The position numbers and the translations under genes are program-made. Shown here piece by piece: positions 3,004-37,844 of a DNA stretch of 45,444 nucleotides. Where the stretch lies: positions 1 through 45,444 of the forward strand of contig JANQET010000118.1 in assembly GCA_028278265.1 (NCBI GenBank), given 5' to 3'. Every line of letters starts with the position of its first letter. The stretch's first letter is position 1. The notes below the pieces were generated by a model, which did not search any database, was not told the origin of the DNA, and saw only the letters and a list, made by a program, of their open reading frames with translations. This stretch comes from Myxococcota bacterium (GTDB lineage Bacteria; Myxococcota_A; Polyangia; JAAYKL01).

Positions 3004-3384
3004 TTTAATTACTCCTCTTTTTCCCATTTTAGCTTAGGTTACGGAGAAGTGGTTGAATTATTTTTGTAATTTTATCATAATGGTATAATCGAAGACCCGT
3101 TGTCCGATGATAGTGCTGCTTGAGCGAAGCGGTCGGCCGGCACCTTCGAGAAGCTTCAAACGGTTGCTGTCACTCGTTGACGGCGGCCAGGGGAGGGAAA
3201 AAGCACATACAGTTCGCCCCGAAAACTGACGATCCTGCATCATTTGGTGTATGCTTAACGTTCAAGCACGATTGATTTTTGTCATTTTTAAAACACACTA
3301 TTATGAGTGGCAAAAGTGGGCAGATGTGGTGACAAAAGGCACTTTTATTGAAGGCTGTATGTGTCGTACTTGTAGGGTCATGTA
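3004..3384. other. intergenic region between divergent lipoprotein and kinase genes
   Basis: About 380 bases between two divergent genes, A+T-rich near both ends. It must carry promoters for both directions, but I see no hexamer pair close enough to consensus to call. A 61-codon minus-strand frame at 3058-3243 has no ribosome binding site or coding character and is not called. Confidence 0.4.
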
Positions 3385-19088: not shown

Positions 19089-19637
19089 ATGGTCGAGATT
19101 CGATTTCACGGCCGCGGTGGCCAAGGGGCTGTTACCTCGGCGGAACTTCTCGCGCAAGCTGCGATCGCTCAGGACAGATATGCCCAAGCATTTCCGAGCT
19201 TTGGGCCCGAGCGACGGGGCGCCCCGGTGGTTGCCTTTGCGCGGATAGATAACAAACCGATACGAGTTCGGACAGTCGTCAGTAAACCGGATAACGTCAT
19301 TGTGCTCGATCCGTCCATATTGCGGATTGTGAACACGTCATTGGGCCTGGCCGAGTCCGGGGTGCAGGTCGTCAACAGCAGCAAGAATGCCGCGACCCTC
19401 AGAAAAGAGTTTGATCTCAAGGGCAAGTTGGTCACGGTCAATGCCAATCGCATTGCCGCCGAGGAGATCGGCCGGGTGATCACCAACACGACCATGCTCG
19501 GCGCGTTGGTCAAGGCCACGGGATTGGTCGATGTTGATTTGCTCGTCGAACAGATTCAAAACCGCTTCGGACGCATCGCCGGGGGCAACATCAAGGCTTT
19601 TAAGCGCGCGTTCGACGAATGCGTCATCGACGAGTAG
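19089..19637 (+). CDS. porG: 2-oxoacid:ferredoxin oxidoreductase, gamma subunit (pyruvate type)
   Basis: Gamma subunit (182 residues) of a four-subunit CoA-acylating 2-oxoacid:ferredoxin oxidoreductase. The family opening EIRFHGRGGQGAVTSAELLAQAA is complete, and PSFGPERRGAPVVAFARID matches the pyruvate/isovalerate branch. AGGAGGAG directly upstream of the ATG is a strong ribosome binding site. First gene of a cluster of twelve on the + strand, followed after 12 bases by the ferredoxin subunit. Pyruvate is the likeliest substrate, with branched-chain 2-oxoacids as the alternative. Confidence 0.93.
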   Translation: MVEIRFHGRGGQGAVTSAELLAQAAIAQDRYAQAFPSFGPERRGAPVVAFARIDNKPIRVRTVVSKPDNVIVLDPSILRIVNTSLGLAESGVQVVNSSKNAATLRKEFDLKGKLVTVNANRIAAEEIGRVITNTTMLGALVKATGLVDVDLLVEQIQNRFGRIAGGNIKAFKRAFDECVIDE

Positions 19638-19649
19638 AAGGAGGCTAAA

Positions 19650-19943
19650 GTGACCAAGCAATCTGAAACCCCCAGATGGCAGGAGTTGGCGCTTGGGACC
19701 GCGGTCACCGACCCGGGTTCGGCCAGGTACAATCGCACCGGGGACTGGCGCTCCAGTCGCCCGATTTGGGACTTTGATAAATGTGTTAAATGCGGCGTTT
19801 GTTCGATATTTTGTCCAGAAGGCTGCATCACCATGCAGGCCGACGGCTTGCCCCTGGCAGACATGGAGTACTGCAAGGGCTGCTCCATCTGCATGGTCGA
19901 GTGCTGGACCGGCTGCATTGAGATGGAAGAGGAGAAAGAGTAA
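19650..19943 (+). CDS. porD: 2-oxoacid:ferredoxin oxidoreductase, delta (2[4Fe-4S]) subunit
   Basis: Small 97-residue iron-sulfur subunit carrying electrons from the alpha/beta core to ferredoxin or the next acceptor. Two CxxCxxCxxxC motifs are visible: CVKCGVCSIFCPEGC and CKGCSICMVECWTGC. The second has Trp instead of the usual Pro after the last-but-one Cys. GAAGGAGG five bases before the GTG at 19650 fixes the start. The stop TAA overlaps the next start by one base (TAATG). Confidence 0.93.
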   Translation: MTKQSETPRWQELALGTAVTDPGSARYNRTGDWRSSRPIWDFDKCVKCGVCSIFCPEGCITMQADGLPLADMEYCKGCSICMVECWTGCIEMEEEKE

Positions 19944-21136
19944 TGGGTGAACGCAAAGGAGTTGAAGTCTCCATCGCCATTGCCGAAGCAGCTGCTGCCT
20001 GTGATGTGGATTGCATTGCCGCCTATCCGATCACACCCCAGACCCACGTGGTCGAGCACCTGTCCGAGATTGTGGCCGAAGGGGAGCTGGATGCCGAGTT
20101 TATTCCGGTGGAATCCGAGCACGCGGCGATGAGCGCCTGTTGCGGCACGGCAGCGGCCGGCGCACGAACCTTTACCGCCACGGCGAGCCAGGGCTTGGCC
20201 CTGATGCACGAGGTGCTGTTCATCGCTTCGTCGCTGCGCCTGCCTATTGTAATGGTGGTGGCCAACCGAGCCCTGTCCGCCCCGATCAACATCTGGAACG
20301 ACCATTCGGACGTGATGACCGAGCGGGATGTGGGCTGGGTGCAAATATTCGCCGAGAACGGCCAGGAAGCGGCCGACCTGGTGGTCCAGGCCCATAAAAT
20401 CGGTGAGGACAAGCGGGTCCTGTTGCCGGTGATGGTGCACTTTGACGGCTTTATCCTCAGCCATGTGATCGAGCCGATTGAGATGCTGGACCGGGACGAA
20501 GTCAAGAAGTTCCTCCCCGATTACGAGCCCCAGCAGCGGCTCGACGTGGACAACCCGATCACCATGGGGCCGGTGGGCATGCCCACGGTCTACACCGAAT
20601 CGAAGATGGCGGCCGAAGCGGCGATTCGTCGCTCTTACGGCCCGATTCTCGAGACCTTCGACGAGTTCGGCAAGCAGTTCGGCCGGCAGTACAAACCGGT
20701 CGAGACCTACAAAACCGAGGACGCCGAGGTGATGTTGATCACCATGGGTGGTATCTCGGAGACCGCGATGAGCTGGGTCGACGAGCGGCGCGCGGCCGGC
20801 GAGAAGGTCGGCTTGGTGCGGTTCCGTCTGTGGCGGCCGCTTCCGATAGAAGAGTTCAAGAAGGCGATCAAGGGCGCCAAGGCGCTGGCAGTGATCGACC
20901 GGCATTTTTCACCGGGCGGTCCGGGGGGTCCGGTGGCTCAGGAGATCAAGTACAACTTGTACGAGGACGAGCCGCGCATCCCCATCGTCGAATGTGTCGC
21001 CGGCCTGGGCGGGCGCGACGTGGACTTCAACGATTTCGACAAAGCACTGGGCAAGGCCAAGGCCGTGCTCAACGGCGAACAGGTTCCCCCATTTGAATTG
21101 ATTCAGGTCAGAGGAGGGCATCATGGAGAAATATAA
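19943..21136 (+). CDS. porA: 2-oxoacid:ferredoxin oxidoreductase, alpha subunit
   Basis: Alpha subunit of 397 residues, containing the pyrimidine-binding domain for thiamine diphosphate (IAAYPITPQTHVVEHLSEI, then EFIPVESEHAAMSACCGTAAAGARTFTATAS split over about 35-80) and a C-terminal transketolase-C-like domain (from about 255). The catalytic Glu lies in the VESEHAA motif. Length is normal for separate PorA subunits. It overlaps porD by one base and porB by fourteen, so all four subunits are probably made in equal amounts. Confidence 0.94.
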   Translation: MGERKGVEVSIAIAEAAAACDVDCIAAYPITPQTHVVEHLSEIVAEGELDAEFIPVESEHAAMSACCGTAAAGARTFTATASQGLALMHEVLFIASSLRLPIVMVVANRALSAPINIWNDHSDVMTERDVGWVQIFAENGQEAADLVVQAHKIGEDKRVLLPVMVHFDGFILSHVIEPIEMLDRDEVKKFLPDYEPQQRLDVDNPITMGPVGMPTVYTESKMAAEAAIRRSYGPILETFDEFGKQFGRQYKPVETYKTEDAEVMLITMGGISETAMSWVDERRAAGEKVGLVRFRLWRPLPIEEFKKAIKGAKALAVIDRHFSPGGPGGPVAQEIKYNLYEDEPRIPIVECVAGLGGRDVDFNDFDKALGKAKAVLNGEQVPPFELIQVRGGHHGEI

Positions 21137-22073
21137 CGTTTACGCAGCCCGTCTCCTGCCCAAGGTAGACTATCTCGGCTCTGGACACCGCGCCTGCCAG
21201 GGGTGCGGCGAGGTCCTGGCCATGCGTTTGGTTCATAAAGCACTCGGCAAAAATACCATCGTCGCCTCGGCCACGGGATGCATGGAGATCATCTCTTCCC
21301 CCTATCCCGAATCGGCCTGGAAGGTGCCGTGGATTCACGTCGCTTTTGAAAACTCGGCGGCGGTCGCCTCTGGTATCGAAGCTGGTTACAAAGCGCTGAT
21401 GCGCAAGGGCAAGTATCCCAAGCGCAAGATCAACTTCGTCGGGTACGGCGGGGACGGCGCGACCGCGGATATCGGCCTGCAGTGGCTCTCCGGCGCGATG
21501 GAGCGCGGTCACGACATGGTCTACGTCTGCTACGACAACGAGGCGTACATGAACACGGGTATCCAGCGGTCCAGCGCGACCCCCTTGGGCGCCTCGACCA
21601 CCACCAGCCCGGCGGGCAAGGCGAGCACCGGACAACAGACCTGGAAGAAGAACATGCCCGAGATCATCGCCGCGCACAACGTACCCTATGTGGCGACGGT
21701 CAACCCGAGCTATCCGTTCGATATGTTTCAAAAAGTGCAAAAAGCCGCCGCAACTCCTGGGCCGGCGTACGTTCACGTGTACTCGTCGTGTCCCACGGGG
21801 TGGCGCATGCGCCCCGAGCTGGCGGTTCAAATCGGGCGTCTGGCCACTGAGACGGGAATTTTCCCGCTTTACGAGGTCGAAAACGGCGTATACCGCATGA
21901 CCCACGAAGAGGGCGATCTTCGGCCGGTCCGCGATTATCTCAAACCCCAGGGTCGGTTCCGACATTTGACGGATGACCTGATCGATAGTATTCAAGCACG
22001 CATTCGCCAAGACTATCGAAAGCTACAACTCAAGGTCCGCATGTCGCAGGAGGAGCGCGATGGAGATGAATAG
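21123..22073 (+). CDS. porB: 2-oxoacid:ferredoxin oxidoreductase, beta subunit
   Basis: Beta subunit of 316 residues with the thiamine-diphosphate binding motif GYGGDGATADIGLQ followed by DNEAYMNTGIQRSS (the GDG...N signature, about 102-145). Cysteines in HRACQGCGE, in SATGCMEI and near SSCPTGW fit the cluster of PorB proteins. AGAGGAGG lies before the ATG at 21123. The 3' end overlaps the nuoE-like gene by fourteen bases, tying the oxidoreductase to the NAD module. Confidence 0.94.
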   Translation: MEKYNVYAARLLPKVDYLGSGHRACQGCGEVLAMRLVHKALGKNTIVASATGCMEIISSPYPESAWKVPWIHVAFENSAAVASGIEAGYKALMRKGKYPKRKINFVGYGGDGATADIGLQWLSGAMERGHDMVYVCYDNEAYMNTGIQRSSATPLGASTTTSPAGKASTGQQTWKKNMPEIIAAHNVPYVATVNPSYPFDMFQKVQKAAATPGPAYVHVYSSCPTGWRMRPELAVQIGRLATETGIFPLYEVENGVYRMTHEEGDLRPVRDYLKPQGRFRHLTDDLIDSIQARIRQDYRKLQLKVRMSQEERDGDE

Positions 22074-22548
22074 AATAGACGCGATCATCGATCGGTACGA
22101 CAAGGCGCCGTCGGCGCTGTTGGCCATCATGCAGGATGTCCAGGACCAGGAGCGGTACTTGCCGCGGGAGGCGATGGACCGCATCGCTTCGCAGCTGAGC
22201 GTGCCGATTGCCCGGGTGTATCAGATGGCGACCTTTTTCGAGTCGTTTCACCTGGAGCCGCGGGGCAAACACATCTGTACGGTCTGCATGGGCACGGCCT
22301 GCCACGTGCGGGGGGCGACCCGCTTGGTGGAGGAGCTGGAGCGGGATCTCGATATCGCCTCAGGCGAGACGACCAAGGATCTGCAGTTCACCATCGAAGA
22401 GGTCAACTGTGTCGGCGCCTGCGCGCTGGGTCCGCTGGTGATCATCGACGGGGAGTATCACGGCACGATGACCTCGGGACGCTTGGGCAAGCTGGTCAAG
22501 AAGATGCAGAAAGCCTCGGCCAAAGGAGATGCCGGAGGAGATAAATGA
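22060..22548 (+). CDS. nuoE: NuoE/HydC-like [2Fe-2S] subunit of an NAD-linked module
   Basis: Subunit of 162 residues of the NuoE, HoxE, HndA, HydC type. An N-terminal helical domain (LLAIMQDVQDQERYLPREAM) precedes a thioredoxin-like fold whose ligands are CTVCMGTAC (first pair, about 72-77 region) and VNCVGACALGP (second pair). AGGAGGAG precedes the ATG at 22060. Its stop overlaps the nuoF-like start (ATGA). Together they form an FMN/NAD(H)-handling module. With no NuoBCD or membrane subunit in the window, this is not complex I; it resembles the diaphorase part of bifurcating hydrogenases or a hydrogenase-free NADH:ferredoxin enzyme. Confidence 0.9.
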   Translation: MEMNRIDAIIDRYDKAPSALLAIMQDVQDQERYLPREAMDRIASQLSVPIARVYQMATFFESFHLEPRGKHICTVCMGTACHVRGATRLVEELERDLDIASGETTKDLQFTIEEVNCVGACALGPLVIIDGEYHGTMTSGRLGKLVKKMQKASAKGDAGGDK

Positions 22549-24398
22549 TGTCGAAAATCGCAAGCGCTAAAGAGCTCGAGTCGTATCGGGGAGAACAGAA
22601 GAAGCATCGACCGGAGAATCAGCGGTTTCTGGCCATTTGCGCGGGGACCGGGTGCAAGGCGTACGGTTCGGACAAGGTGGTGGCCGCGTTTGCCGAAGAG
22701 CTCGAAAAAGCGGGCCTGTCCGATGAGGTGAAGATCCGGGCCACGGGGTGTCACGGTTTTTGTGAGCGGGGCACGTTGGTGGTGTTTCAGCCCGAGGGAA
22801 TTCTGTACCAGCGGGTGCAGCCCGACGCGGTGGCCGACATTGTCGAACGCACCATCAAGAACGGGGAGATCATCGAGGACCACCTGTACGACGATCCGTC
22901 GACCGGCGAGAAGTACAAGTACGAAAAGGACATTCCATTCTATAAATATCAGAACCGGATGATCCTGGGCATGAACGGTCACATCGACCCCTGTTCGATC
23001 GACGACTACATTGCCTTGGACGGGTATTCGGCGCTGGTCAAGGCGTTCGAGGTGGGACCGGAAAAAGTGCTCGAAGAGGTCAAGGCGTCGACATTGCGCG
23101 GCCGCGGTGGCGGCGGCTTCCCGGCGGGGCGCAAATGGGAGACCTGCCGCAACGCCGAATCCGACAAACGCTACGTGATCTGCAACGCGGACGAGGGCGA
23201 CCCGGGCGCGTTCATGGATCGCTCGATCCTGGAGGGCAACCCCCATTCGGTGATCGAAGGGATGATCATCGGCGCGTTCACCATCGGTTCGGACGAAGGG
23301 TACGTCTACGTGCGCCACGAGTATCCCCTGGCGGTGGAGCGGCTGGGCATCGCCCTGCAGCAGGCCCGGGAAAAGGGCTTTCTGGGTGAGAACATCCTGG
23401 GTACAGGGCTCAACTTCGACATCAAGATCAACCGGGGCGGCGGGGCCTTCGTCTGTGGCGAGTCCACCGCGCTGATGGCGTCGATCGAAGGGAAGGTGGG
23501 CGAACCGCGGGCCAAGCACATTCACACGGTGATCTCGGGCTTGAACGACAAGCCGTCCAACCTGAACAACGTGGAGACCTGGGCCAATGTGCCGCTGATC
23601 GTGCAGAAGGGCTCCAAGTGGTACACCTCGATTGGGACCAAGGGGTCGCCGGGGACCAAGATTTTCTCGTTGGTCGGCAAGGTGAACAACACCGGCCTGG
23701 TCGAGGCGCCGATGGGCATGACGTTGCGTCAGATCATTTTTGACGTGGGCGGCGGCATCCCCGGCGGCAAAGAGTTCAAAGCCGTGCAGACCGGCGGCCC
23801 GTCCGGCGGCTGCCTGCCCAAGGAAAAGCTCGACCTGCCGGTGGACTTCGACACCCTATGGGAAGAGGGCTCGATGATGGGCTCTGGCGGCATGATCGTG
23901 ATGGACGAGCGGAACTGCATGGTGGACGTGGCCAAGTACTTCCTGGGCTTCTTGAAGTTCGAGAGCTGCGGTAAGTGCACGACCTGCCGCGAGGGTGTGA
24001 AGCGCCTGCACGAGCTGGTGACCGACGTGACCGAGGGCAAGGGCACGATGGAGACGCTGGAGCTCATCCAACAACTCTGCGATACGGTGGAAGTCGGGTC
24101 GCTCTGCGCCCTGGGCCAGACCGCGGTCAACCCGGTGCGCTCGACGCTCAAACTGTTCCGCGAGGAATACGAAGCGCATGTGAAAGATCGCAAATGTCCG
24201 GCCGCCGTGTGCAAAGAGCTGATCACCTACACGATCGACGAAGAAGTGTGCACCGGCTGTTTGGTCTGCGGCAAGCGTTGTCCGCAGGATGCCATATTGG
24301 GAACCAAGAAAAAACCACACACCATCGTACAGGAAAAATGCATCAAGTGCGGCATCTGCGAGGATGTCTGCAAGTACGGTTCGGTGCGCGTGGCTTAG
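22545..24398 (+). CDS. nuoF: NuoF/HydB-like NAD- and FMN-binding iron-sulfur subunit
   Basis: Subunit of 617 residues, close in size and layout to HydB of bifurcating hydrogenases and longer than complex I NuoF. The N-terminal thioredoxin-like [2Fe-2S] domain has Cys32, Cys37, Cys69 and Cys73. The FMN/NAD core starts with GRGGGGFPAG (186-195) and continues with NADEGDPGAFMDR. An SLBB-like segment precedes the N3-type cluster SCGKCTTCREG (about 473-483). A C-terminal 2[4Fe-4S] ferredoxin domain (about 568-617) has CTGCLVCGKRC and CIKCGICEDVC. The protein can exchange electrons between NAD(H) and ferredoxin-like carriers. ATGA overlap with nuoE. The hydrogenase or other low-potential partner expected for HydB is not encoded nearby. 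Confidence 0.92.
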   Translation: MMSKIASAKELESYRGEQKKHRPENQRFLAICAGTGCKAYGSDKVVAAFAEELEKAGLSDEVKIRATGCHGFCERGTLVVFQPEGILYQRVQPDAVADIVERTIKNGEIIEDHLYDDPSTGEKYKYEKDIPFYKYQNRMILGMNGHIDPCSIDDYIALDGYSALVKAFEVGPEKVLEEVKASTLRGRGGGGFPAGRKWETCRNAESDKRYVICNADEGDPGAFMDRSILEGNPHSVIEGMIIGAFTIGSDEGYVYVRHEYPLAVERLGIALQQAREKGFLGENILGTGLNFDIKINRGGGAFVCGESTALMASIEGKVGEPRAKHIHTVISGLNDKPSNLNNVETWANVPLIVQKGSKWYTSIGTKGSPGTKIFSLVGKVNNTGLVEAPMGMTLRQIIFDVGGGIPGGKEFKAVQTGGPSGGCLPKEKLDLPVDFDTLWEEGSMMGSGGMIVMDERNCMVDVAKYFLGFLKFESCGKCTTCREGVKRLHELVTDVTEGKGTMETLELIQQLCDTVEVGSLCALGQTAVNPVRSTLKLFREEYEAHVKDRKCPAAVCKELITYTIDEEVCTGCLVCGKRCPQDAILGTKKKPHTIVQEKCIKCGICEDVCKYGSVRVA

Positions 24399-24429
24399 TG
24401 CTTTGTCAGGGAAACACTGTCGGGTCGGG

Positions 24430-24529
24430 ATCCCCCATTCCCCCTTTGAAAAAGGGGGTTAGGGGGATTTCGTCTCTTGAGCAGCGCTTTGGGGAGGTCA
24501 AAATCCCCCCAGCCCCCTTTTCAAGGGGG
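24430..24529. repeat. palindromic C/G-rich double-hairpin repeat inside the redox cluster
   Basis: Two hairpins in the 224-base gap between nuoF and korA. The first pairs CCCCCTTT (24440) with AAAGGGGG (24451), extended by ATCCCCC (24430) with GGGGGAT (24462). The second pairs CCCCCTT (24513) with AAGGGGG (24523). The right arm of the first (24449-24470) is also an inverted copy of the left arm of the second (24501-24522). Elements with this CCCCC-TTTT-GGGGG look are scattered in many genomes as small non-coding repeats. Here it could attenuate transcription or protect RNA ends between the two halves of the cluster. Confidence 0.75.
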
Positions 24530-24622
24530 AGCTTCTCACCTGACTTTTGATTGTCAATGGGGATTATAAAGGAGAACCGTAGAGTTATTAGAAATATGTA
24601 AGCGATCAGCCAAAAGGAGAAG

Positions 24623-25765
24623 ATGATGCCCCCAAGTGTTGACCCCAAAAAGCCTCCGCAAACTCTGATGCAGGGTAATGTGGCGGTGGCTGAAGCGGCG
24701 ATTCGCGTGGGATGCCGCTTTTTTGGCGGCTATCCGATTACGCCATCCAGTGAAGTGATGATGCGGATCGCCCAACTGCTCAGGGAAAACAACGGAACCT
24801 TCATTCAAATGGAAGACGAAATCGCCTCCATTTGCGCAGTGATCGGCGCCTCTTGGAGCGGGGCCAAGGCCATGACCGCCACTTCCGGTCCCGGCTTCAG
24901 CCTGATGCAAGAAGGTCTCGGTTACGCCTACTTTACTGAAACCCCCCTAGTACTAGTCGATGTGCAGCGCGCCGGCCCGGCGACCGGGCAGGCGACCCAC
25001 GTGGCCCAAGGGGATGTGATGCAGTTCAAGTACGGTTCCCACGGCGACTACTACCCAATAGCCCTGGCTCCCTGGTCGGTTCAAGAGCTGTATGACCTGA
25101 CCATTCGCAGCTTCAACCTGGCCGAAAAGTACCGAGTGCCCGTCTTTTTGGCCACCGACGAAGCGATTGGCCACGCCCGCGAAAATATCGAGATTTACGA
25201 GGAGTTCGAAATCGTCGATCGCGTGCGGGAAGGGGAGGGGATGCCCTTTGGTCACGATGCCCCGGACGGGGTACCGGTGATGCCCGCTTTTGGCGACGGC
25301 GCCTCATTGATGGTCACCGGTTCAACCCACAACCCCCAGGGGTTCCGCAAAGTGGACGACCCGGACGTGCACAACAACCTGGTCACGCGCCTGATGCGCA
25401 AGACGATGGATCATGTGGACGATATCGTGGAAACCGAGGAGTACTTCCTCGATGACGCGGAAATCGCCTTCTTCGCCTTTGGCATCTCGGCCCGTACGGC
25501 AGTCGCCGCAGTGCGCCGTCTTCGCGAAAAAGGGGTCAAGGCCGGCCTGCTGCGCACCCGAACCCTCTGGCCGTTTCCCGAAAAACAGATCACCGAGGTG
25601 GGCAAGCAGGTGCGCGCGTTGATCGTCCCCGAGCTGAACAAGGGCATGATGGCCTCGGTGGCGCGTGGGTATTCTCAAGCGCCGGTCCATCAGATCAACA
25701 AGACCAACGGGTATGTGCTGGAACCCGAAGAGTTGATCGAATACGTGGAGGAGGAGCTGTCATGA
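24623..25765 (+). CDS. korA: 2-oxoglutarate-type 2-oxoacid:ferredoxin oxidoreductase, alpha subunit
   Basis: Alpha subunit of 380 residues without a fused gamma domain. VGCRFFGGYPITPSSEVM and the glutamate in MEDEIASICAVIGASWSG mark the thiamine-diphosphate site; SGPGFSLMQEGLGYA and PATGQATHVAQGDVMQ are typical of KorA. AAAAGGAGAAG precedes two ATG codons at 24623 and 24626. The stop overlaps korB (ATGA). By family resemblance the substrate is 2-oxoglutarate, reversible with succinyl-CoA; other 2-oxoacids are possible. Confidence 0.93.
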   Translation: MMPPSVDPKKPPQTLMQGNVAVAEAAIRVGCRFFGGYPITPSSEVMMRIAQLLRENNGTFIQMEDEIASICAVIGASWSGAKAMTATSGPGFSLMQEGLGYAYFTETPLVLVDVQRAGPATGQATHVAQGDVMQFKYGSHGDYYPIALAPWSVQELYDLTIRSFNLAEKYRVPVFLATDEAIGHARENIEIYEEFEIVDRVREGEGMPFGHDAPDGVPVMPAFGDGASLMVTGSTHNPQGFRKVDDPDVHNNLVTRLMRKTMDHVDDIVETEEYFLDDAEIAFFAFGISARTAVAAVRRLREKGVKAGLLRTRTLWPFPEKQITEVGKQVRALIVPELNKGMMASVARGYSQAPVHQINKTNGYVLEPEELIEYVEEELS

Positions 25766-26520
25766 GTCGGGCAATGGAGAAATACCTGCGCGAGGGACTG
25801 GCCGGCACGGCGTTTTGTCCCGGGTGCGGGCACGGCATTCTGCTGGGCGCGGTGCTCAGGGCGGTCGATCGCATCGGTGTCAAAAAAGAGGATCTGCTCT
25901 TCGTCTCCGGTATCGGCTGTGCGGCCTGGATACCCAGTCCCAATATCGGCACTGATACCCTGCACACGCTTCACGGTCGCGCGGTGGCCTTTGCCACCGG
26001 GGCCAAGCTGGCCAACCCCAAGCTCAAGACGATTGTCGTTTCCGGCGACGGGGACCTGACCTCCATTGGCGGCAACCACCTGATCCACGCGGCGCGGCGC
26101 AACGTCGATCTGACCGTGATCTGCGCCGACAACCAGATCTACGGCATGACCGGTGGTCAGACCGCTTCGACCACCCCGGTCGGCGCCAAGTCATCTACTG
26201 ATCCCGGGGGCAACATCTATCGGCCGTTTGACCTGTGCAAGCTGGTCAGCGCAGCCGGAGCCCGCTACACCGCACGCTACCCGGTGACCCAACCGCGCAA
26301 GCTGATCGATGCCATCGAGAAGGCGTTGCGCCAGGACGGGTTCACCTTTGTCGACGCGGTCAGCCCCTGTCCGACCCAATTCGGTCGGCGCAATCAGATG
26401 GCCAACCTGAAGAAACTGTACAGCACGGTTGAGTCCCTGTGTGTCACACCCGCCGAAGCCGAGGCAATGGACGAAGAGACACGGCTGCATCACTTTGCGA
26501 TAGGGGAGTTCGTGGCATGA
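25762..26520 (+). CDS. korB: 2-oxoglutarate-type 2-oxoacid:ferredoxin oxidoreductase, beta subunit
   Basis: Beta subunit of 252 residues with the cluster ligands FCPGCGHG, SGIGCAAW and SPCPTQFGRRN. Thiamine-diphosphate binding is shown by VVSGDGDLTSIGGNHLIHA and DNQIYGMTGGQTASTTP (about 90-145). The HTLHGRAVAFATGAKLANP segment is characteristic of KorB. GAGGAGGAG lies upstream of the ATG. It overlaps both neighbours by four bases. Confidence 0.94.
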   Translation: MSRAMEKYLREGLAGTAFCPGCGHGILLGAVLRAVDRIGVKKEDLLFVSGIGCAAWIPSPNIGTDTLHTLHGRAVAFATGAKLANPKLKTIVVSGDGDLTSIGGNHLIHAARRNVDLTVICADNQIYGMTGGQTASTTPVGAKSSTDPGGNIYRPFDLCKLVSAAGARYTARYPVTQPRKLIDAIEKALRQDGFTFVDAVSPCPTQFGRRNQMANLKKLYSTVESLCVTPAEAEAMDEETRLHHFAIGEFVA

Positions 26521-27092
26521 CAGATCAAAAGAAAACTCAGTCCAACGGCAAGTACCAAGTGCTGATCGCCGGTGAGGCCGGGCAGGGGGTGATCATTCAA
26601 GGCATCATCCTCGCCGAATCTGCGGTGGCTTCGGGCGCTTGGGTGACTCAGTCAGCACGCTATGGTGCGGCCATGCGCGGCGGCGTGGCGACCTCCGATG
26701 TGGTGATTTCCAACCAACCGATTGATTTTCCCGAGGTGGAAAAACCGGACTACATGATTGCGATTTCCCAGCTCACCTACGACAAATTTGCGGTGGGCAA
26801 GCGGGAGGCCCGGGTGGTGGTTTACGACCCGTTCTTCGTCAAACCGGTTGAGCTCGAAGGGGTGACCCAAGTGGGCGTCGCGGCAACCGATACGGCGATC
26901 AAGGTTTTTGGTGGGGCGCAGGCCTCCAACCTGATCATGTTGGCCGGATTGGCCGAGGTGACCGGGTTGGTATCGACCAAGGATATGATTGAAGCGATCG
27001 ATCGCAACCTGTCCAAGAAGTTTCGCGAGAACAATATTCGCGCGCTCGAGATTGGCAAAGAGATGGCCCAAGAAGCCGGGAAGGGGGCGTAA
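26517..27092 (+). CDS. korC: 2-oxoacid:ferredoxin oxidoreductase, gamma subunit (KorC/KorG)
   Basis: Gamma subunit of 191 residues. The start at 26517 (ATGA overlap with the korB stop, preceded by GGGGAG) is preferred over a longer frame from 26439 that would run inside korB. YQVLIAGEAGQGVIIQGIIL and QSARYGAAMRGGVATSDVVIS are the family signatures. The stop overlaps the GltD-like gene by one base (TAATG). Confidence 0.92.
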   Translation: MTDQKKTQSNGKYQVLIAGEAGQGVIIQGIILAESAVASGAWVTQSARYGAAMRGGVATSDVVISNQPIDFPEVEKPDYMIAISQLTYDKFAVGKREARVVVYDPFFVKPVELEGVTQVGVAATDTAIKVFGGAQASNLIMLAGLAEVTGLVSTKDMIEAIDRNLSKKFRENNIRALEIGKEMAQEAGKGA

Positions 27093-28477
27093 TGGCTGGC
27101 GGACGCACTCACATACCGGAGTACAATCAGAACAAATGCTTTACCTGCGGCGGTTGCACCCACCAGTGCCCGGCAGCGGTCTTCACCGAATTGAGCGATG
27201 AGCACGGTTCCCTGCGCGGGGCCCTGTTCACCAATCGCCCGTACGAGGGGAAACCCACTGACCTGCCCCCCTGTCGACTCGCCTGTCCCTTGGGCCAGGA
27301 TGTGCCGACCTATGTCTCGGCAATTGCCAAAGAGGATATGGCCGGCGCGGCGGCGGTGATTCGCCAAACCAACGCCCTGCCTTCGGTTTGTGGCCGGGCC
27401 TGCATCGCGTCTTGCATGCGCGCCTGCTCCAGGGCAGGGATCGACGAAGGGGTCGATATTCGCGGGCTCAAGCGATTTGCGGTGAACGTGGTGGATCAAG
27501 TCGACCCCCCCAAGAGCGCTGTCAAAACGTCGGCACCCAAGGTGGCGATCATCGGTGGAGGACCGGCGGGACTGGCCGCGGCGCACCGGCTGATTCAGCT
27601 CGGACTGCAGGCCACGGTGCTCGAAGCCAACGAGGTGGCCGGCGGGATGCTCGTCGACGTGATCCCCGAGTTCGTGCTGCCCCGGGAAATGGTGGCCAAG
27701 GATGTGGCCAACCTCGAAAAGATGGGGGTGGATTTGCGCCTCGGTGTACGCGTGGGCAAGGACATGAGTTGGGAGGAGGTCGAAAAAGAGTACGACGCCG
27801 TGCTGGTGACCACCGGCGCGCCCCGATCGGCCAGGCCCGCCGTCAAGGGGGCAGAGCTGGAAGGGGCCACCGCAGCGACCGAATTCTGTTGCAACGCGGA
27901 TAAGCGTCAGGATCGCATTGAGGGACCGGTGGTCGTTCAGGGCGGTGGTCAAGCGGCGTTGCAGGCGGCGCGGACGGCGTTGCGCCTCGGTGCGTCTCCG
28001 GTGACGGTGGTCCATTCAACCCCACTCGAGTTGTGGCCCGCAGGACCCGATGCGGTCGCGCTGGCCAAGAGCGAAGGGGTCGAGCTCAAGCCCGAGTTTC
28101 GCGCCACAGCGGTGGAGGGCAATGGCGTTATCGAGTCGGTGACGGTCAACAAGGTGTTTGTCGGACCGGCCGATGGGGTAGGGCGTCCGACCGGAGGGCG
28201 CAGCGGCAAGGCCGAAAAGTTGAGTGCCGTTGTTTTTGTCGAGGCCATGGAGAACCGGCGTCCCGACAAGGCCAATCAGCCCGAGTTCGAGGAGATCGGC
28301 TGGGGCTTGCTGGGCAATCTCAAGGTCTGTGGTGAGTACAAACTGGGTCGGCCCGGATGGTACGCCGCGGGCGAAACGGCCACCGGAGCGGCGACGGTTG
28401 TGGACTCGATGGCCACCGGACGGTTGGCTGCCGAGGCGATCGAACGGGATTTGGCCGCCAAGAGGGAGGCAAAATAA
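27092..28477 (+). CDS. GltD-like FAD/NAD(P)-dependent iron-sulfur oxidoreductase
   Basis: Flavoprotein of 461 residues related to the small subunit of glutamate synthase. An extra N-terminal cluster motif CFTCGGCTHQCPA (16-28) is followed by the usual GltD N-terminal ligands (CRLACPLGQDVP and VCGRACIASCMRAC), an FAD site VAIIGGGPAGLAAAHRL (about 151-167), an NAD(P)-type site VVVQGGGQAALQAARTAL and a final WYAAGETATGAATVVDSMATG. No large glutamate synthase subunit lies nearby. It is fused by one-base overlaps between korC and the HoxU-like gene. In Azoarcus/Thauera a 2-oxoglutarate oxidoreductase with an FAD/NADP-binding subunit of this type reduces NADP+; the same role is inferred here. Confidence 0.9.
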   Translation: MAGGRTHIPEYNQNKCFTCGGCTHQCPAAVFTELSDEHGSLRGALFTNRPYEGKPTDLPPCRLACPLGQDVPTYVSAIAKEDMAGAAAVIRQTNALPSVCGRACIASCMRACSRAGIDEGVDIRGLKRFAVNVVDQVDPPKSAVKTSAPKVAIIGGGPAGLAAAHRLIQLGLQATVLEANEVAGGMLVDVIPEFVLPREMVAKDVANLEKMGVDLRLGVRVGKDMSWEEVEKEYDAVLVTTGAPRSARPAVKGAELEGATAATEFCCNADKRQDRIEGPVVVQGGGQAALQAARTALRLGASPVTVVHSTPLELWPAGPDAVALAKSEGVELKPEFRATAVEGNGVIESVTVNKVFVGPADGVGRPTGGRSGKAEKLSAVVFVEAMENRRPDKANQPEFEEIGWGLLGNLKVCGEYKLGRPGWYAAGETATGAATVVDSMATGRLAAEAIERDLAAKREAK

Positions 28478-29253
28478 TGGCGCTTTCTCTAACCATTGAC
28501 AAAAAGAAGGTAACTGCCGAAACGGGTGAGAGTTTGTTGGACGTGGCCAATCGCAACGGAGCCGAGATTCCGTCACTCTGCCACCATCCCCATCTCAAGC
28601 CCTATGGGGCGTGTCGCTTGTGCCTGGTTGAAGTCAAACGCAACGGTCGCACCAAGATCACCACCTCCTGCAATTATGAGGTGCTCGACGGTATCGAGGT
28701 GACCACGGTCACCGATCAGATCAAGACCCACCGCAAGATGGTGCTGGAGTTGCTTTTGGGAATCGCGCCCGAGGCGATGCGGATCAAGGGGCTCGCCAGA
28801 GGCCATGGGGTACAAACCCCTGCCTTCAAGGCGGACAAGCCACCGGCCAATCGCAAAAATTGCATTGTTTGTGGTCTCTGTTCGAGGGTCTGCGAAGATG
28901 TGGTCGGGGCCAGCGCAATCACGATGACCGGCAGAGGAGATGGCAAGGGGCTCAAGGTCCCATTCGATGATGTCATCGCCGATTCGTGCATTGGTTGCGG
29001 CGCCTGCGCGTCGGTTTGTCCAACAGGGGCGATTGATATGGAGAGCATCGCGGTCAACATCCTACGGAAACAACCGGCGACTGACAGAAAATGCCGCTAC
29101 AACCTGATGGGGCTGATGATCGGTGCCCTGTGTCCCAACAACTACGACTGCGCCAGGTGCGAGGTGGACCAGAAGTTCCAAGAAGCGAGTCAACCGCACC
29201 ACCCGATCTTCGCGGCAAGGGGCCTAATCGTCCCGCAGGGATGGGAGGAATAA
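28477..29253 (+). CDS. HoxU/NuoG-N-terminus-like [2Fe-2S]+2[4Fe-4S] protein
   Basis: Iron-sulfur protein of 258 residues; the start at 28477 (TAATG overlap, GGGAGG upstream) is chosen over a longer frame inside the previous gene. A plant-type [2Fe-2S] domain comes first (SLCHHPHLKP, GACRLCLVEV, TTSC). The Cys3-His cluster segment that normally follows in NuoG/HoxU is missing its ligands (LLGIAPEAMRIKGLARGHG). Two [4Fe-4S] motifs follow, CIVCGLCSRVC and CIGCGACASVC. The C-terminus carries four more cysteines (KCRYN and LCPNNYDCARCEVDQ) that could hold another centre. It probably wires the flavoprotein and NAD modules to the oxidoreductases. Confidence 0.88.
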   Translation: MALSLTIDKKKVTAETGESLLDVANRNGAEIPSLCHHPHLKPYGACRLCLVEVKRNGRTKITTSCNYEVLDGIEVTTVTDQIKTHRKMVLELLLGIAPEAMRIKGLARGHGVQTPAFKADKPPANRKNCIVCGLCSRVCEDVVGASAITMTGRGDGKGLKVPFDDVIADSCIGCGACASVCPTGAIDMESIAVNILRKQPATDRKCRYNLMGLMIGALCPNNYDCARCEVDQKFQEASQPHHPIFAARGLIVPQGWEE

Positions 29254-29574
29254 ATGGAGCGATTCGATACCTGTCAGATCATCGGCGACAAGAGAGTCAG
29301 ACCCAAGCTCCCCGCGGCGGTGGAAAGAGTGGCCACCTTTGCCGAGGCCGAGCCGACGTTGGATTTAGAGGCAGCCAAGGCCGAAGCCCAACGCTGCACC
29401 GTCTCCAGCCCCTGCCACTACTGCGAAGTCTGCCAACTGATGTGTCCCGACCTCTGCATTCTAAGGGATGAAGAGACCAACGCACTCGTCTTTGATCTCA
29501 ATTATTGCAAGGGCTGCGGCCTCTGCGCCAACTACTGCCCCCACGGGGCGATTGAGATGGTATTGGACGAGTAG
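29254..29574 (+). CDS. 2[4Fe-4S] ferredoxin-type subunit
   Basis: Protein of 106 residues, last gene of the redox cluster, starting immediately after the previous stop with GGGAGG upstream. After a 45-residue N-terminal part come CHYCEVCQLMCPD and CKGCGLCANYCPHG, plus an extra cysteine in RCTVSSPC. The N-terminal region (DLEAAKAEAQRC) resembles the linker that precedes clusters in GltD-family proteins, so this may be the split partner of the GltD-like subunit or the delta subunit of the Kor enzyme. Confidence 0.9.
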   Translation: MERFDTCQIIGDKRVRPKLPAAVERVATFAEAEPTLDLEAAKAEAQRCTVSSPCHYCEVCQLMCPDLCILRDEETNALVFDLNYCKGCGLCANYCPHGAIEMVLDE

Positions 29575-29625: not shown

Positions 29626-31296
29626 CTAGTAGACAGGATCGACGCCCTCGTTTGTTTGAACGACCTTCTGGATAGTGCCGTCGGCGTTGTAATCGAGGTA
29701 ATCCACGCATACCCGCCGGGTGTAGTTGCTGTTCACGCCGATGTGATAGAACATGTACCATTCACCCTTGTATTCAACGATGGAGTGATGGTTGGTCCAG
29801 AAGGGCACGGCATCCAGAATCGTGCCTTTGTGGGTGTAGGGGCCCATGGGGTGGTCGGCCATGGCGTAGTCGATAGTGCAGTGTCCCCCATGATTGGCCG
29901 AGTAGGAAAAGTAGTACTTTCCGTCGCGCTCGTGCAACCAGGGCGCCTCGAAATAGTTGGGTACGTTGTCGATGCGCTCAATGGGGCCATCGAGCTCGAC
30001 CATGTTCTCATTGAGGATGACGATCCTCGCGTCATCACCGCCGGATCCACCGCCAAAGACCAGGTACGCCTGATCATCTGCCGGATCGATGAAGACCGCC
30101 GGGTCAAACACCCGCTCCACATCCGGGCAGTCGGTCCGCTCGACCAGGGGTTCACCCAGGGCGTCGATGAACGGCCCCTGGGGCACATCACTGGTGGCCA
30201 CCCCGATATGGCCTTCGGTCTTGGGGAAGTAGAGGTAGTAGGTGCCGTCTCTGTACTGGCAGTCCGGGGCGTACAGGTAGGGATCTCCCCAGCTCACGTC
30301 GCTGGCGTGGAGGGCGATGCCGTGATCCTCCCAGTCCACCATGTTGGTGGTGGAGAAGATGTGATAATCCACCATCTCCCAGTATCCGGCGTTGTCCGGA
30401 TCGTGAGAGGGATAGAGCCACAGCTTGCCGTCACCCCAGACATGGGCCGAGGGATCGGCCGTGAAGATGTGGTTGATAATCGGGTTCCCAGATGTAACCG
30501 GCACTTGCTCCAGCTTCCACTTCTGGTTGTCCGTGTCCAGAAACTCCCACTGGTGCACGTTGCCGCCATTGTCGTGGGAGCTCTCCATCACATCTACGCA
30601 TTTGTCGCTGACCTTGGAGATGATCCGATTGTAACTGTCGCCCAAGGGCTCGATGCGCCATTTCTGATTCTCTTGATCCTGGCAGTGCCATTGGTGGATA
30701 TCGGCGCCGTTGTCCAGGGCGGGATCACCCACGGTGAGGCATTTTTTGCTGAACTTGGAGACAATCGAGACATACCCATCACCTTGTTCGATTAGGCGCC
30801 ACTTCTGGTTTTCTTGGCCCAGGTACTCCCACTGCTGGATGGAAGCACCGTCGCTTGTGGAGAATCCCGATACATCGAGGCTCTTGCCGCTGTGTTTGGC
30901 CGTTATCTTGAAGTAAACGGGCAGATCCGGATCGGTGTCCGAGTCGGCATCGGAGTCACTATCCGTGTCGGCGTCTGAATCACTGTCTGAATCGCTGTCT
31001 GAATCACTGTCTGAATCGCTGTCCGCGTCGCTGTCTGAATCGCTGTCCGCGTCGCTGTCTGAATCGGAATCTGCGTCCGCATCCGCATCGCTGTCGCTGT
31101 CCGCGTCTCCACCGTCCACAGGATCGATGCATGTGCCGGTATCATCACAGATCTGGTTATTCGGGCAGTCGTTGTCGACAGTACAGCTGTCTCCTTCATT
31201 TTGCTTGTCAACGCTGCAGGTGGCAAGCGACAAGACCAAAGTCACATGGAGCCCTATCGATGCCGCAAATGTCTGTAATTGTTTATAAATTGTCAT
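29626..31296 (-). CDS. GH43-family glycoside hydrolase lipoprotein with ricin-type lectin domain
   Basis: Surface lipoprotein of 556 residues. Signal peptide and lipobox LATC (Cys27) are followed by a four-Cys motif ([20 protein letters not shown]), an Asp/Ser/Ala tract (about 62-124), a ricin B / CBM13-like beta-trefoil (about 127-265) with three paired QxW-type repeats (QQW, HQW, HQW each followed by QKW), and a GH43 five-bladed propeller. The likely GH43 triad is Asp281 (TADPSAH), Asp398 (VFDPAVFID) and Glu450 (YFEAPW). Relatives are arabinofuranosidases, xylosidases and galactosidases, so plant-type polysaccharide is the probable substrate. A perfect sigma-70 promoter lies 95 bases upstream. 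The Shine-Dalgarno is weak. Confidence 0.92.
30930..31110. repeat. tandem-repeat tract encoding the GH43 protein linker
   Basis: About 180 bases of 6- and 12-base imperfect repeats (on +, alternating GAATC, CTGTC and CGCTG units) encode the DS-rich linker. Same kind as the tracts at 2531 and 37505. Confidence 0.75.
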
Positions 31297-31479: not shown

Positions 31480-31563
31480 GGTGTAATGGTTGGAGCGATT
31501 AATCCCCCCTGCGAAACTGCCCCAAAACCAACAGAAGCCATTAACTTGGTAAAAGGATGAAGA

Positions 31564-32307
31564 ATGTCTAACTATGTGTTGATCGGGCGTGGTCGCGCCA
31601 TCAGCAGGATACCCCAGGCCGAATGGGAAGAGGAGCTGAAGTCGGCTCCTGGAGTCATCAGCAAGCGCTTGAACTTCATGTCGGACGAGCATCACCAGGT
31701 GCGCAATTTCGTCGTCCGGGAGCTCCCCCGGATGGATCAGCCGATCGCAGTGAGCACCATTTCGGATGCACTCGGTATTCCTCTTCAGCGTACGATGTCC
31801 ATCGTCAGTGATCTGGAGCGAAACCTGTTCTTTCTCGTCCGCCACGGCGGAAAAGAGGTGTCCTGGGCCTTCCCGGTGACGGTCGAGCAGACCGGCCATC
31901 ACCTGACGTTTAGCACGGGAGAGCGTCTGGAAGCCGCCTGAGCAGAGGACGCGATAGCGACCCCCTTCGTGCAAGGGCAATTGCGGAACGCCCCCCTCGA
32001 GGTGGAGATCAATTCGGCCTGTGCGAACAGCGACAACGCCATCAAAGTGGTTATCGACAGTGATCTGAACTATCGGATTCTGACGGGGAGCCCATCGCTG
32101 TTGGTCTTCGAGCCTGACGTCGACTGGAATCGGTTCCAGGAGCCCAACATCCTAAATGGATACTGACGCAAGTGCCTATTCTTCTGGTCAGAAGAACACG
32201 CGCGTGAGTATCGCACAAAAGGTGGTCAAGTGGATGGCACCTATTTGACCCTCGACCAGTGCTGCGCGTCGACTCGGATAGTCCAGGGAACGCTGTTCGC
32301 CTTCTAA
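31564..32307 (+). CDS. MerB-like (organomercurial lyase family) protein, predicted double selenoprotein
   Basis: One frame of 247 codons plus TAA, interrupted only by TGA at 31939 (codon 126) and 32164 (codon 201). Residues 40-110 form a MerB-like winged-helix region (DQPIAVSTISDALGIPL, then WAFPVTVEQTGHHLTFSTGERLEAA). The first TGA sits in x-A-E-D, matching C96-A-L-D99 of MerB, so the Asp99 equivalent (129) is kept. Cys153 matches MerB Cys117. The second TGA, five residues before FFWSEEHA, matches Cys159 before HVHFF. Coding sense continues to the end (GTYLTLDQ, QGTLFAF). Each TGA is followed by a SECIS-like hairpin. Read as Sec126 and Sec201, the protein keeps the whole MerB catalytic set. 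AAGGA precedes the ATG. The alternative is a doubly mutated pseudogene. The substrate (organomercurial or other C-metal/metalloid bond) is inference. Confidence 0.82.
31939..31984 (+). promoter_or_regulatory. SECIS-like element after the first in-frame TGA
   Basis: TGA at 31939-31941. CCCTT (31963) pairs with AAGGG (31973) around the loop CGTGC, extended by GCGA (31957) with TTGC (31981) across a small internal loop. The loop starts 26 bases after the TGA and has G as its second base, within the known rules for bacterial SECIS hairpins (G among the first two loop bases, 16-37 bases from TGA). Confidence 0.55.
32164..32199 (+). promoter_or_regulatory. SECIS element after the second in-frame TGA
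   Basis: TGA at 32164-32166. TTCTTCT (32179-32185) pairs perfectly with AGAAGAA (32190-32196) around GGTC, the same loop bases as the E. coli fdhF SECIS. The loop starts after 19 intervening bases (18 in fdhF). An outer GTG/CAC pairing (32172, 32197) leaves a 5'-side bulge CCTA that contains a T, recalling the bulged U that SelB reads. Confidence 0.75.
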
Positions 32308-33110: not shown

Positions 33111-33989
33111 CTACAGCGCATCTGGCGGCAGCACCTCTAGTTCAACCAACGCCTTTTTGGTGAGCTCGATTCTTTTCTGGGGTAGCTGGTCGGTGTCTTT
33201 TCCGGTGATATTCAACGCAAAGAAATAAATGTTGTCATGGGCTTCGACAAACCCGACATACCAGGCCACCGGTGGGGCGTCTGGTCCGGCGCAGAACCCG
33301 GTCTTTGCGCTGATTGAGTAGCTGGTTTCTTTTTCGCGTACCATGATCGCTTTAACGACCGAGGTTGCGCGGTCGGACACTCCCAGGTTTTCGAAGTAGA
33401 GCCGCTTCAAAAATTCTACTTGTTCATCTGCGGAAATTTTCATGCTGCTCTCGAGCCAGAACCGATCGATACCACCGCTGATATCGTTGTTCCCATAAAC
33501 GAATTTTTCGAGATAGCGAGCCATTTTCTCCGAACCAATGCACTGGGCCAGCTCCTGATAGTACCAGACACACGACTGCGCAAAAGCCGACTTCAAGGAG
33601 TGATCCCGATCCCAGTGTATTCCCCAAGGTGCCAAGTGGGTATCCCAGCCGGGTTTCTTTGGATATTTTTTCGAATCCCATTCAATCACGGAATCCGCGT
33701 CGGCCACTGCTCCAGTCTCCAAGGCGATAAGCGAATTGGGAATTTTGAAAGTGGAGCAGGGCGAGAAACGCTGCGCCGCGCGAGTGGAGTTGTGGCGGAT
33801 ATAGCGGTTGTTGTTCAAATCGTAAAACACAAACGTACCTTCGGTCTCACCAAAAACAGCGGCCAGATTCGCCGATCCAGTCGGCTTGATACCGGGTGCC
33901 TTGGGTATGACGCCGGTGGCTTGGTTTTTAGGTGGAGTGGAACAGGCCAGGGGTAGCAGGAGTCCGATGAGCCAGATATGATGTTTCAT
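33111..33989 (-). CDS. bla: class D (OXA-type) serine beta-lactamase, lipoprotein
   Basis: Class D beta-lactamase of 292 residues. AGCGGAGG eight bases before the ATG at 33989 sets the start; a longer frame to 34154 is rejected. Lipobox LLPLAC (Cys16) predicts a periplasm-facing lipoprotein, where most OXA enzymes are soluble. All motifs are present: Ser79-T-F-Lys82 (nucleophile and carbamylated lysine), Ser139-C-V (SxV), Tyr165-G-N (YGN), Trp178 (carbamate-stabilising), Lys229-T-G and the WYVGF strand. The normal penicillinase activity is therefore expected; the spectrum cannot be read. It stands alone, with no mobile element or regulator beside it. Confidence 0.95.
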   Translation of the reverse strand: MKHHIWLIGLLLPLACSTPPKNQATGVIPKAPGIKPTGSANLAAVFGETEGTFVFYDLNNNRYIRHNSTRAAQRFSPCSTFKIPNSLIALETGAVADADSVIEWDSKKYPKKPGWDTHLAPWGIHWDRDHSLKSAFAQSCVWYYQELAQCIGSEKMARYLEKFVYGNNDISGGIDRFWLESSMKISADEQVEFLKRLYFENLGVSDRATSVVKAIMVREKETSYSISAKTGFCAGPDAPPVAWYVGFVEAHDNIYFFALNITGKDTDQLPQKRIELTKKALVELEVLPPDAL

Positions 33990-34178
33990 AATGTATACCT
34001 CCGCTGTTTTCTCAGTTGTTGTCCTGCACCCGACCCAACGCCGATGCCCCATCGGAGTATTCCCAACACCTGTTGAACGAAGCCAGCAACAGTGATAATA
34101 GCAAATGATGAAAAAGCTTGGGCTCTTCGATGGAACGGTTGAGGAGCTCTCCAAACAGAGAAAGAGCGTCCGTTTCCG

Positions 34179-36608: not shown

Positions 36609-37844
36609 TTAGAGGTCAGTGTAGTTGATGTAATGGCCGCTGTTCAGGAAGTGGGTTGTCCAATAGGTCTGTACCTCTTGAAGGTGTTGGATTCTGGAGT
36701 CTCCCCAGTTGTCGCCCCAGCCGTAGTCGGCCCAGTTGATATTGATATAAACAAACGCGCGCACATCGTAGTCTTGTTCGATGATCTGCCGGGCTCTGCC
36801 GAACCAATTCTCAAAGTGAGCCAGGTTCATCTGTGCCGGACTGGTTTGGGCGGCGGCTTCCGCGATGATAATCGGTTTTCCGGTTCCGGCGGCCATGTCC
36901 AAAATGCCCTTGAGGTTGGCATCGTAGGTGTTGGAAGGATCGCAATTGGTTGAACCTTCGTATTCCACACAGATATCGTGATTAAAGAGCGAGATGCCAT
37001 ACCAGTCGGTATAGGTATCGCCCGGGTAAAAATTGTGGTTGTTGGCGCCGCGAATGGTGTGAAACACAAAAGAGACATTGGAGATGCCCTGAGAGTCTCT
37101 GATATAGGCCGCCATGTAATTGAACGCATCCTTGAACGTCTGCGGTCCGGCGCTCCCGCAGGTATGATCGCTGATCTCGTAGCCGATGCGCATCAAGAAA
37201 TGCAGGTTGGGAAATCTGTTCAGGATATCGATAAACGAATCAATTAGATGGTTTTGCCCCCCTGAGGCGATCGAGCCGCAGGTGCCGGCGTCGGCTGGCA
37301 AGCGAATGCCGAGTTGGGCGTAGGCGCCGGGGTAGGTGGTGTTCATGTATGAGAGGAAAGCTTGATTATCAACATCGGATCCGCTGTTGATCGTGCCGTT
37401 GACAAAATCGCCGTAGTGGGAAGAGCCGGCCGGGGCAACGCCGGTGGCCGTCACATAATCCTTGAACTCCGGCATCCACTCCTGCCCGATAATCAGCAAT
37501 GTTGTACCGTCGGCATCGGTGTCCGAATCTGAATCTGAATCTGAATCGGCGTCAGCGTCCGAGTCGGAATCGGAGTCCGCGTCAGAGTCTGCGTCGGTGT
37601 CCGAATCGCTATCGGAATCGGTGTCACTATCGGAATCAGCGTCAGTGTCCGAATCCGAATCAGAATCGGAATCAGCATCCGAGTCGCTATCGGAGTCAGA
37701 GTCACCATCAGAATCGGAATCCGCGTCCGAATCAGAATCAGCGTCCGCGCCGGAATCGGGGGAGGAGTCTCCATTATCTGAACAGCTAAAATTCAGAATC
37801 AATACGGTGATTGAAAACGCACAAAACCAAAGACGAAAAAGCAT
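36609..37844 (-). CDS. GH26-like glycoside hydrolase lipoprotein with Asp/Ser linker
   Basis: Lipoprotein of 411 residues. AGGAGG five bases before the ATG at 37844. Signal peptide with lipobox NFSC (Cys21), then about 85 residues of D/S/A/T repeats (about 30-112), then a clan GH-A type catalytic domain. The likely acid/base is Glu223 in [10 protein letters not shown], and the nucleophile Glu329 in [11 protein letters not shown], with [10 protein letters not shown] between. The motifs resemble GH26 (beta-mannanase/lichenase-type) proteins, but other clan A families cannot be excluded. It lies divergent from the TonB-dependent receptor gene, which suggests a link between polysaccharide breakdown and uptake. 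Confidence 0.85.
37505..37755. repeat. tandem-repeat tract encoding the GH26-like protein linker
   Basis: About 250 bases of imperfect 6-base repeats (on +, GAATCG, GAGTCA, GTCCGA-like units) encode the acidic spacer. Homologous in style, not identical, to the tracts at 2531 and 30930. Confidence 0.75.

Follow-up and report, generated by a model that had tools for sequence, protein, structure and literature searches.

The organomercurial lyase MerB relies in its chemistry on Cys96, Cys159 and Asp99 (PMC4525700), and a survey of MerB demands both Cys96 and Cys159 (PMC8261052). A MerB relative with selenocysteine (Sec) is already on record: SaoL, a MerB-like protein of the SAO system, is catalogued with the motif CU and one Sec in a 2026 review (PMC13188914), in the available part of which MerB is mentioned twice, both times in the SaoL row. 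The organic mercuric lyase MerB2 is also listed as a predicted selenoprotein of MerB type in PMC7435645, and is compared here by a table entry that gives neither a sequence nor a number of Sec residues. The original prediction for the gene described below knew of no described MerB with Sec at both catalytic positions. Our incomplete literature search agrees, no description of a Sec/Sec MerB having been found in it, including the available parts of PMC2398784, PMC12013277, PMC9312934, PMC7435645 and PMC5029168.

The gene lies in a 45,444-nucleotide stretch of DNA from a Myxococcota bacterium (contig JANQET010000118.1; here, the window). Its features, all on the plus strand, are as follows.

31553..31557, plus strand: Shine-Dalgarno-like AAGGA, 6 bases 5' of the ATG, read from the sequence
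31564..32307, plus strand: frame of a predicted 247-residue double selenoprotein, terminator TAA, matching Pfam MerB (PF03243)
31939..31941, plus strand: UGA codon 126, predicted Sec, at the MerB Cys96 position by profile alignment and conservation
31948..31950, plus strand: Asp129, at the MerB Asp99 position by alignment, Asp in 82 of 82 aligned loci
31963..31977, plus strand: SECIS-type hairpin 1, CCCUU-CGUGC-AAGGG, loop start 26 nt past UGA 126
32020..32022, plus strand: Cys153, at the MerB Cys117 position by profile alignment
32164..32166, plus strand: UGA codon 201, predicted Sec, at the MerB Cys159 position by profile alignment and conservation
32179..32196, plus strand: SECIS-type hairpin 2, UUCUUCU-GGUC-AGAAGAA, loop start 19 nt past UGA 201

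Retranslation gave the same frame as first described: across the 247 codons of 31564-32307, the only internal stops are the TGA codons at 126 and 201, with no TAA or TAG. The read-through protein scored 45.7 bits against Pfam PF03243 (gathering cut-off, 27 bits; E = 7.9e-12), in line with the earlier view that MerB-like coding sense spans both TGAs, and the single pieces (before the first UGA; between the UGAs) had no Pfam match at E 0.1. Among NCBIfam models, the best match was SaoL (NF040728; 39 bits, cut-off 140), and the MerB equivalog reached 28.3 bits (cut-off 193). Both scores are under their cut-offs, and thus no NCBIfam family claims the read-through protein.

To find relatives, genome contigs were scanned and the best 80 of 95 were kept; adding two kin-genome loci (L025 and L026) and the window's own gene (L024) gives 83 loci (L024-L106). 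The plus-strand frames of 82 were aligned, leaving outside L026, a 49-residue minus-strand match with one TGA. TGA was present at both codons in 78 of the 82 aligned loci, the window's gene counted; since L024 is that gene, 77 of the 78 come from elsewhere. Three loci (L025, L040, and L085) have Cys126 with TGA201, and L025 and L085, with identical motifs, may be one gene. The remaining locus, L105, has TGA at 201 but nothing aligned to codon 126, where its DNA reads TGG, and its N-terminus is decayed. Asp129 is kept throughout. Extra inner stops were confined to L101 (one TGA and one TAA or TAG), where they were judged by eye to come from a frame shift near the 3' end. The recurrence of TGA at both codons is far beyond chance. 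The original prediction looked to homologues for Cys or Sec at these sites. At codon 126 that is what they carry (78 TGA/TGA and 3 Cys/TGA among the 82 aligned); for codon 201, Cys was seen in distant MerB alone, with no case confirmed inside the family.

The double-TGA loci stem from metagenome-assembled genomes, binning errors possibly among them, and their record titles name nine phyla or candidate phyla (Acidobacteria, Chloroflexi, Deltaproteobacteria, KSB1, Bacteroidota, Rokuibacteriota, Abyssobacteria, Binatia, and Nitrospirae). The distribution of the family is patchy. Matches were found in 3 of 96 kin genomes, the window's own counted, and any profile match, distant MerB counted in, occurred in 14 of 347 Acidobacteriota genomes; 15 of 297 Desulfobacterota genomes had a profile match, which in 11 was near full length with two TGAs. 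No relative was detected in the viral contigs searched, and the plasmids searched yielded two distant MerB (22-23% identity).

To place the two codons on known structures, we compared a family profile of 44 rows with solved chains, with residue numbering after PMC8261052. The profile matched MerB2 (5c17, E = 5.4e-8) and an alkylmercury lyase (1s6l, E = 3.2e-4). In the alignments listed, columns 126, 129, 153 and 201 fall on Cys96, Asp99, Cys117 and Cys159 of 1s6l-type chains, which agrees with the proposal that the TGAs occupy the Cys96 and Cys159 positions and Asp that of Asp99. The family is thus alignable with MerB of both the R831b type (1s6l) and the MerB2 type (5c17) across most of the protein and has the Cys117 equivalent; it shares the Asp99 equivalent, as Asp129, with the R831b type, the residue in 5c17 at this column being Ser. 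A CxxC at 153/156 is nearly invariant in the family, and the window has Ser at 156. Unlike MerB, the family has UGA in place of both catalytic Cys codons, about 20 extra residues ahead of the aligned part, and no recurrent mer neighbours (81 loci).

Since SaoL is the best NCBIfam match at 39 bits and has a UGA at the codon 201 (Cys159) position, the gene could be SaoL itself, in divergent form, and belong to the known SAO system. This score is far from the 140-bit cut-off, however, and the two SaoL genes over it (L107 and L108) have UGA at 201 but Cys at the codon 126 (Cys96) position, where our gene has UGA. The neighbourhood gives a similarly divided picture: ABC-transporter ATPase genes, which would suit an SAO system, lie no more than 8 kb away in 10 of the 81 loci but within 300 bases of the gene in only 2, and there was no selenoprotein neighbour among the 40 pairs listed, all of which were antisense shadows of the gene itself. 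We consider a divergent SaoL highly improbable.

A second MerB-like group with UGA at both catalytic positions was observed in Desulfobacterota (here, clade B), comprising ten genes (L111, L114, L119, L121, L122, L125, L126, L129, L131, and L132). Like the present family, clade B has the double UGA in all ten rows, and the GGUC hairpin sequence follows the second UGA in the nine listed. It differs in having Glu for Asp129 in all ten, FRSE versus FWSE, and another stretch after the first UGA.

We next asked whether the RNA downstream of each UGA is of the kind used for Sec insertion. The bacterial SECIS model, as set out in PMC13188914, has a loop of 3-9 nt with G within the first two positions, a stem of 4-16 bp, a spacing of 16-37 nt and an energy of at most -7.5 kcal/mol. 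Hairpins 1 and 2 lie within these ranges, with loops of 5 and 4 nt that have a G among their first two nucleotides, stems of 5 and 7 bp, spacings of 26 and 19 nt, and energies of -10.7 and -10.3 kcal/mol (40-nt folds). Rfam gave no match over either hairpin. The loop GGUC of hairpin 2 is presumably similar to the E. coli fdhF loop. On the window sequence alone, the hairpins are unremarkable: 455 and 496 of 5000 synonymous shuffles (about 9-10%) were as good as hairpins 1 and 2, respectively, as were 119 and 35 of 200 dinucleotide shuffles of 52 nt and 51 and 27 of 200 of 40 nt. It is cross-species conservation that bears the argument. The five pairs of hairpin 1 are intact in all 78 loci with TGA126 (loop CGTGC in 76, CGTCG in 2), with a compensatory change of the outer pair from C-G to T-A in 4 loci; the seven pairs of hairpin 2 are intact in 81 of 81 loci, with the loop GGTC in every one and a compensatory C-G to T-A in 1 locus. 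The strongest evidence for these predicted elements is synonymous codon choice. The majority-codon share averaged 0.97 in ten conserved hairpin codons versus 0.52 in 57 conserved codons elsewhere, among which the highest value was 0.80. In the two Cys126 genes compared at hairpin 1, the hairpin was broken in L040 and still intact in L085.

These data bear on whether the gene might instead be a merB in decay, hit by two nonsense mutations, or the product of misassembly. The window's frame, taken by itself, has two stops and nothing more, as either would produce. In the window contig, the two putative Sec codons rest on the assembly together with their recurrence in relatives elsewhere; both TGAs are found in 77 loci outside the window, other inner stops occur in L101 alone, and the hairpins are frozen across loci. 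Contradicted by TGA recurrence and by codon constraint in the hairpins, a pseudogene or assembly error was rejected and is exceedingly improbable.

The original prediction also pointed to selA, selB, selC and selD in the same genome, and all of these turned up: the window's genome has SelA, SelB, SelD and tRNA-Sec genes over cut-off, two of each. This genome is a metagenome bin (7.67 Mb, 516 contigs, 90.65% complete, 3.73% contaminated), and its two Sec gene sets could reflect either a mixture or a true duplication. The duplicate SelA, SelB, tRNA-Sec and SelD genes lie on contigs C30, C341, C441, C421, C59 and C47 of the bin, and one of the two selD genes has an in-frame TGA. Among 42 carrier genomes, reached via 42 of the 80 loci, selB was over cut-off in 38; incompleteness perhaps accounts for the other four.

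Protein-database copies of the family were examined in 120 of 179 matches (P0002-P0121), and all counts that follow refer to those 120 listed. The protein ends just before the second UGA in 68 relatives, which stop exactly at residue 200 (67 with Cys126 and one with Trp126), and before the first UGA, at residue 125, in 14; Trp stands at both UGA sites in 34. Because many database copies are truncated before a UGA or read as Trp/Trp, surveys based on Cys96 and Cys159 would likely miss these genes. Cys occupies site 126 in 69 relatives. Three lone database proteins without DNA (P0018, Ser/Cys; P0034, Gly/Leu; P0071, Cys/Cys) were not accepted as Cys/Cys relatives. In a quick 144-row tree, the state of site 126 changed at least 5 times, with 5 changes forced by starred branches and the direction not readable. 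The rows comprised 75 Sec126 by DNA and 69 Cys126, 67 of the latter being proteins without DNA; L036, L037, L101, L105, Trp/Trp proteins, and proteins starting past residue 40 or ending before residue 200 were left out.

The 34 Trp/Trp proteins among the 120 listed could suggest that TGA is reassigned to Trp (genetic code 4 or 25). In the window, however, TGA works as an ordinary stop: it ends 10 of 31 larger open reading frames picked by hand (TAG, 12; TAA, 9). Reassignment is also at odds with the 67 Cys126 relatives whose sequence stops at residue 200, just ahead of the second UGA, with the hairpins and with the sel genes. On these four grounds reassignment was rejected, and its probability is minimal. 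The Trp/Trp proteins would fit code-4 gene calling of selenoprotein genes. As a side observation, Trp at UGA sites in database proteins may offer a route to further selenoproteins.

Conservation of the TGAs, the hairpins with their frozen codons, and the Sec machinery in the genome make it a very strong prediction that UGA 126 and UGA 201 are both read as Sec. We infer from these lines that UGA is decoded as Sec in this family, and all three support the Sec/Sec active site first proposed for the window's gene.

The function of the protein is less certain than the double Sec. We favor a MerB-like selenoprotein with predicted Sec at both catalytic Cys sites that would act, without MerA, as a Sec-Sec-Asp lyase of organomercurials or related organometals, and consider this reading probable. 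It is favored because MerB without MerA is common (906 of 1,795 merB genomes lack MerA in the PMC8261052 survey) and because MerB chemistry uses Cys96, Cys159 and Asp99. From these parallels, we infer a MerB-like fold and action, with mercury as the probable substrate. By analogy with MerB, R-Hg+ or a related organometal would be taken up by the two selenolates, and Asp129 would donate a proton to the carbon so that the hydrocarbon leaves; the metal would go on to cellular thiols or selenide instead of MerA. A double selenolate site of this kind would offer a test of what selenium contributes to the cleavage of carbon-metal bonds, with natural Cys/Sec relatives for comparison.

Several observations speak against the favored reading, namely the scarcity of MerA, the absence of recurring mer or ars neighbours, the scores under the NCBIfam MerB and SaoL cut-offs, and the patchiness of the family. 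Only 2 of the 43 carriers had MerA over cut-off, the window's genome not among them. Among 864 neighbouring open reading frames in 81 loci, no mer operon context and no recurring mer or ars gene beside the family gene were detected. The clusters adjoining the gene in at least 3 loci encoded a MerR-type regulator (7) and a MarR regulator (4), with no others; a scan of 56 adjacent genes (of 83 same-strand neighbours) gave MerR in 6 and MarR in 4, among the 25 of 98 families listed. The seven MerR-type neighbours do not look like mercury sensors, because they have 0-3 Cys each and the sole shared Cys is N-terminal (ICxYR, in six of seven).

The main rival is that this MerB-type double selenoprotein is no carbon-mercury lyase but handles another substrate, or binds a soft metal or metalloid so as to sequester it. 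Such a protein would suit the 41 of 43 carriers with MerA under cut-off and the lack of recurring mer neighbours, and the Asp99 position does vary in related groups (Glu in clade B, Ser in MerB2 5c17; MerB 99Ser variants are also described in PMC8261052). Against it, Asp129 is invariant in the 82 aligned loci, as would be expected if proton donation matters. We judge sequestration or another substrate unlikely, though a serious contender, and retain the Sec-Sec-Asp lyase as the preferred reading.

Of the 43 carriers, 13 have an over-cut-off match to HgcA, the corrinoid protein of mercury methylation; one of the 13 is the window's genome (contig C407 of the bin, 1917-2906; 429.7 bits, cut-off 275). 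The protein is about as frequent across Desulfobacterota as a whole (83 of 297). Within these 297 genomes, HgcA was over cut-off in 6 of the 11 carriers of the family and in 77 of the remaining 286 genomes (Fisher P = 0.08); with the centre genome removed, the carrier count was 5 of 10 (P = 0.15). For clade B carriers it was 6 of 10 (P = 0.03). Pooling the carriers of either clade gave 12 of 20 (P = 0.003), and 11 of 19 once the centre genome was removed (P = 0.006). All of these values are uncorrected for kinship. In these counts G128 and G193, with HgcA matches under cut-off, were scored as lacking HgcA, and the clade B carriers did not include single-TGA matches in G146, G327 and G334 or second matches in G124, G183, G218, G275 and G277. 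The link to hgcA is weak, and the enrichment within Desulfobacterota is suggestive only. The survey reports no hgcAB in MerB-only genomes (PMC8261052).

We raise tentatively, and hold somewhat doubtful, the wider idea that these genes form a widespread, unannotated class of organomercurial lyases with a Sec-Sec-Asp site, able to break down methylmercury in the absence of MerA, also in cells with hgcA such as that represented by the window's genome. If so, a single cell could both produce and destroy methylmercury. If the protein is a lyase, the demethylation potential of anoxic soils and sediments would be undercounted.

Other features of the window were noted in passing. A penicillin-binding transpeptidase-domain protein (33111-34154, minus strand; Pfam, 105 bits) has what we take to be the look of a class D beta-lactamase. 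Three minus-strand proteins (2128-3027, 29626-31296, and 36609-37844) have long Asp/Ser-rich repeats near the N-terminus, and that at 29626-31296 also has ricin-type lectin and GH43 domains by Pfam. On the plus strand, 19089-29574 appears by eye to encode two 2-oxoacid:ferredoxin oxidoreductases together with NADH-dehydrogenase-like flavoproteins.
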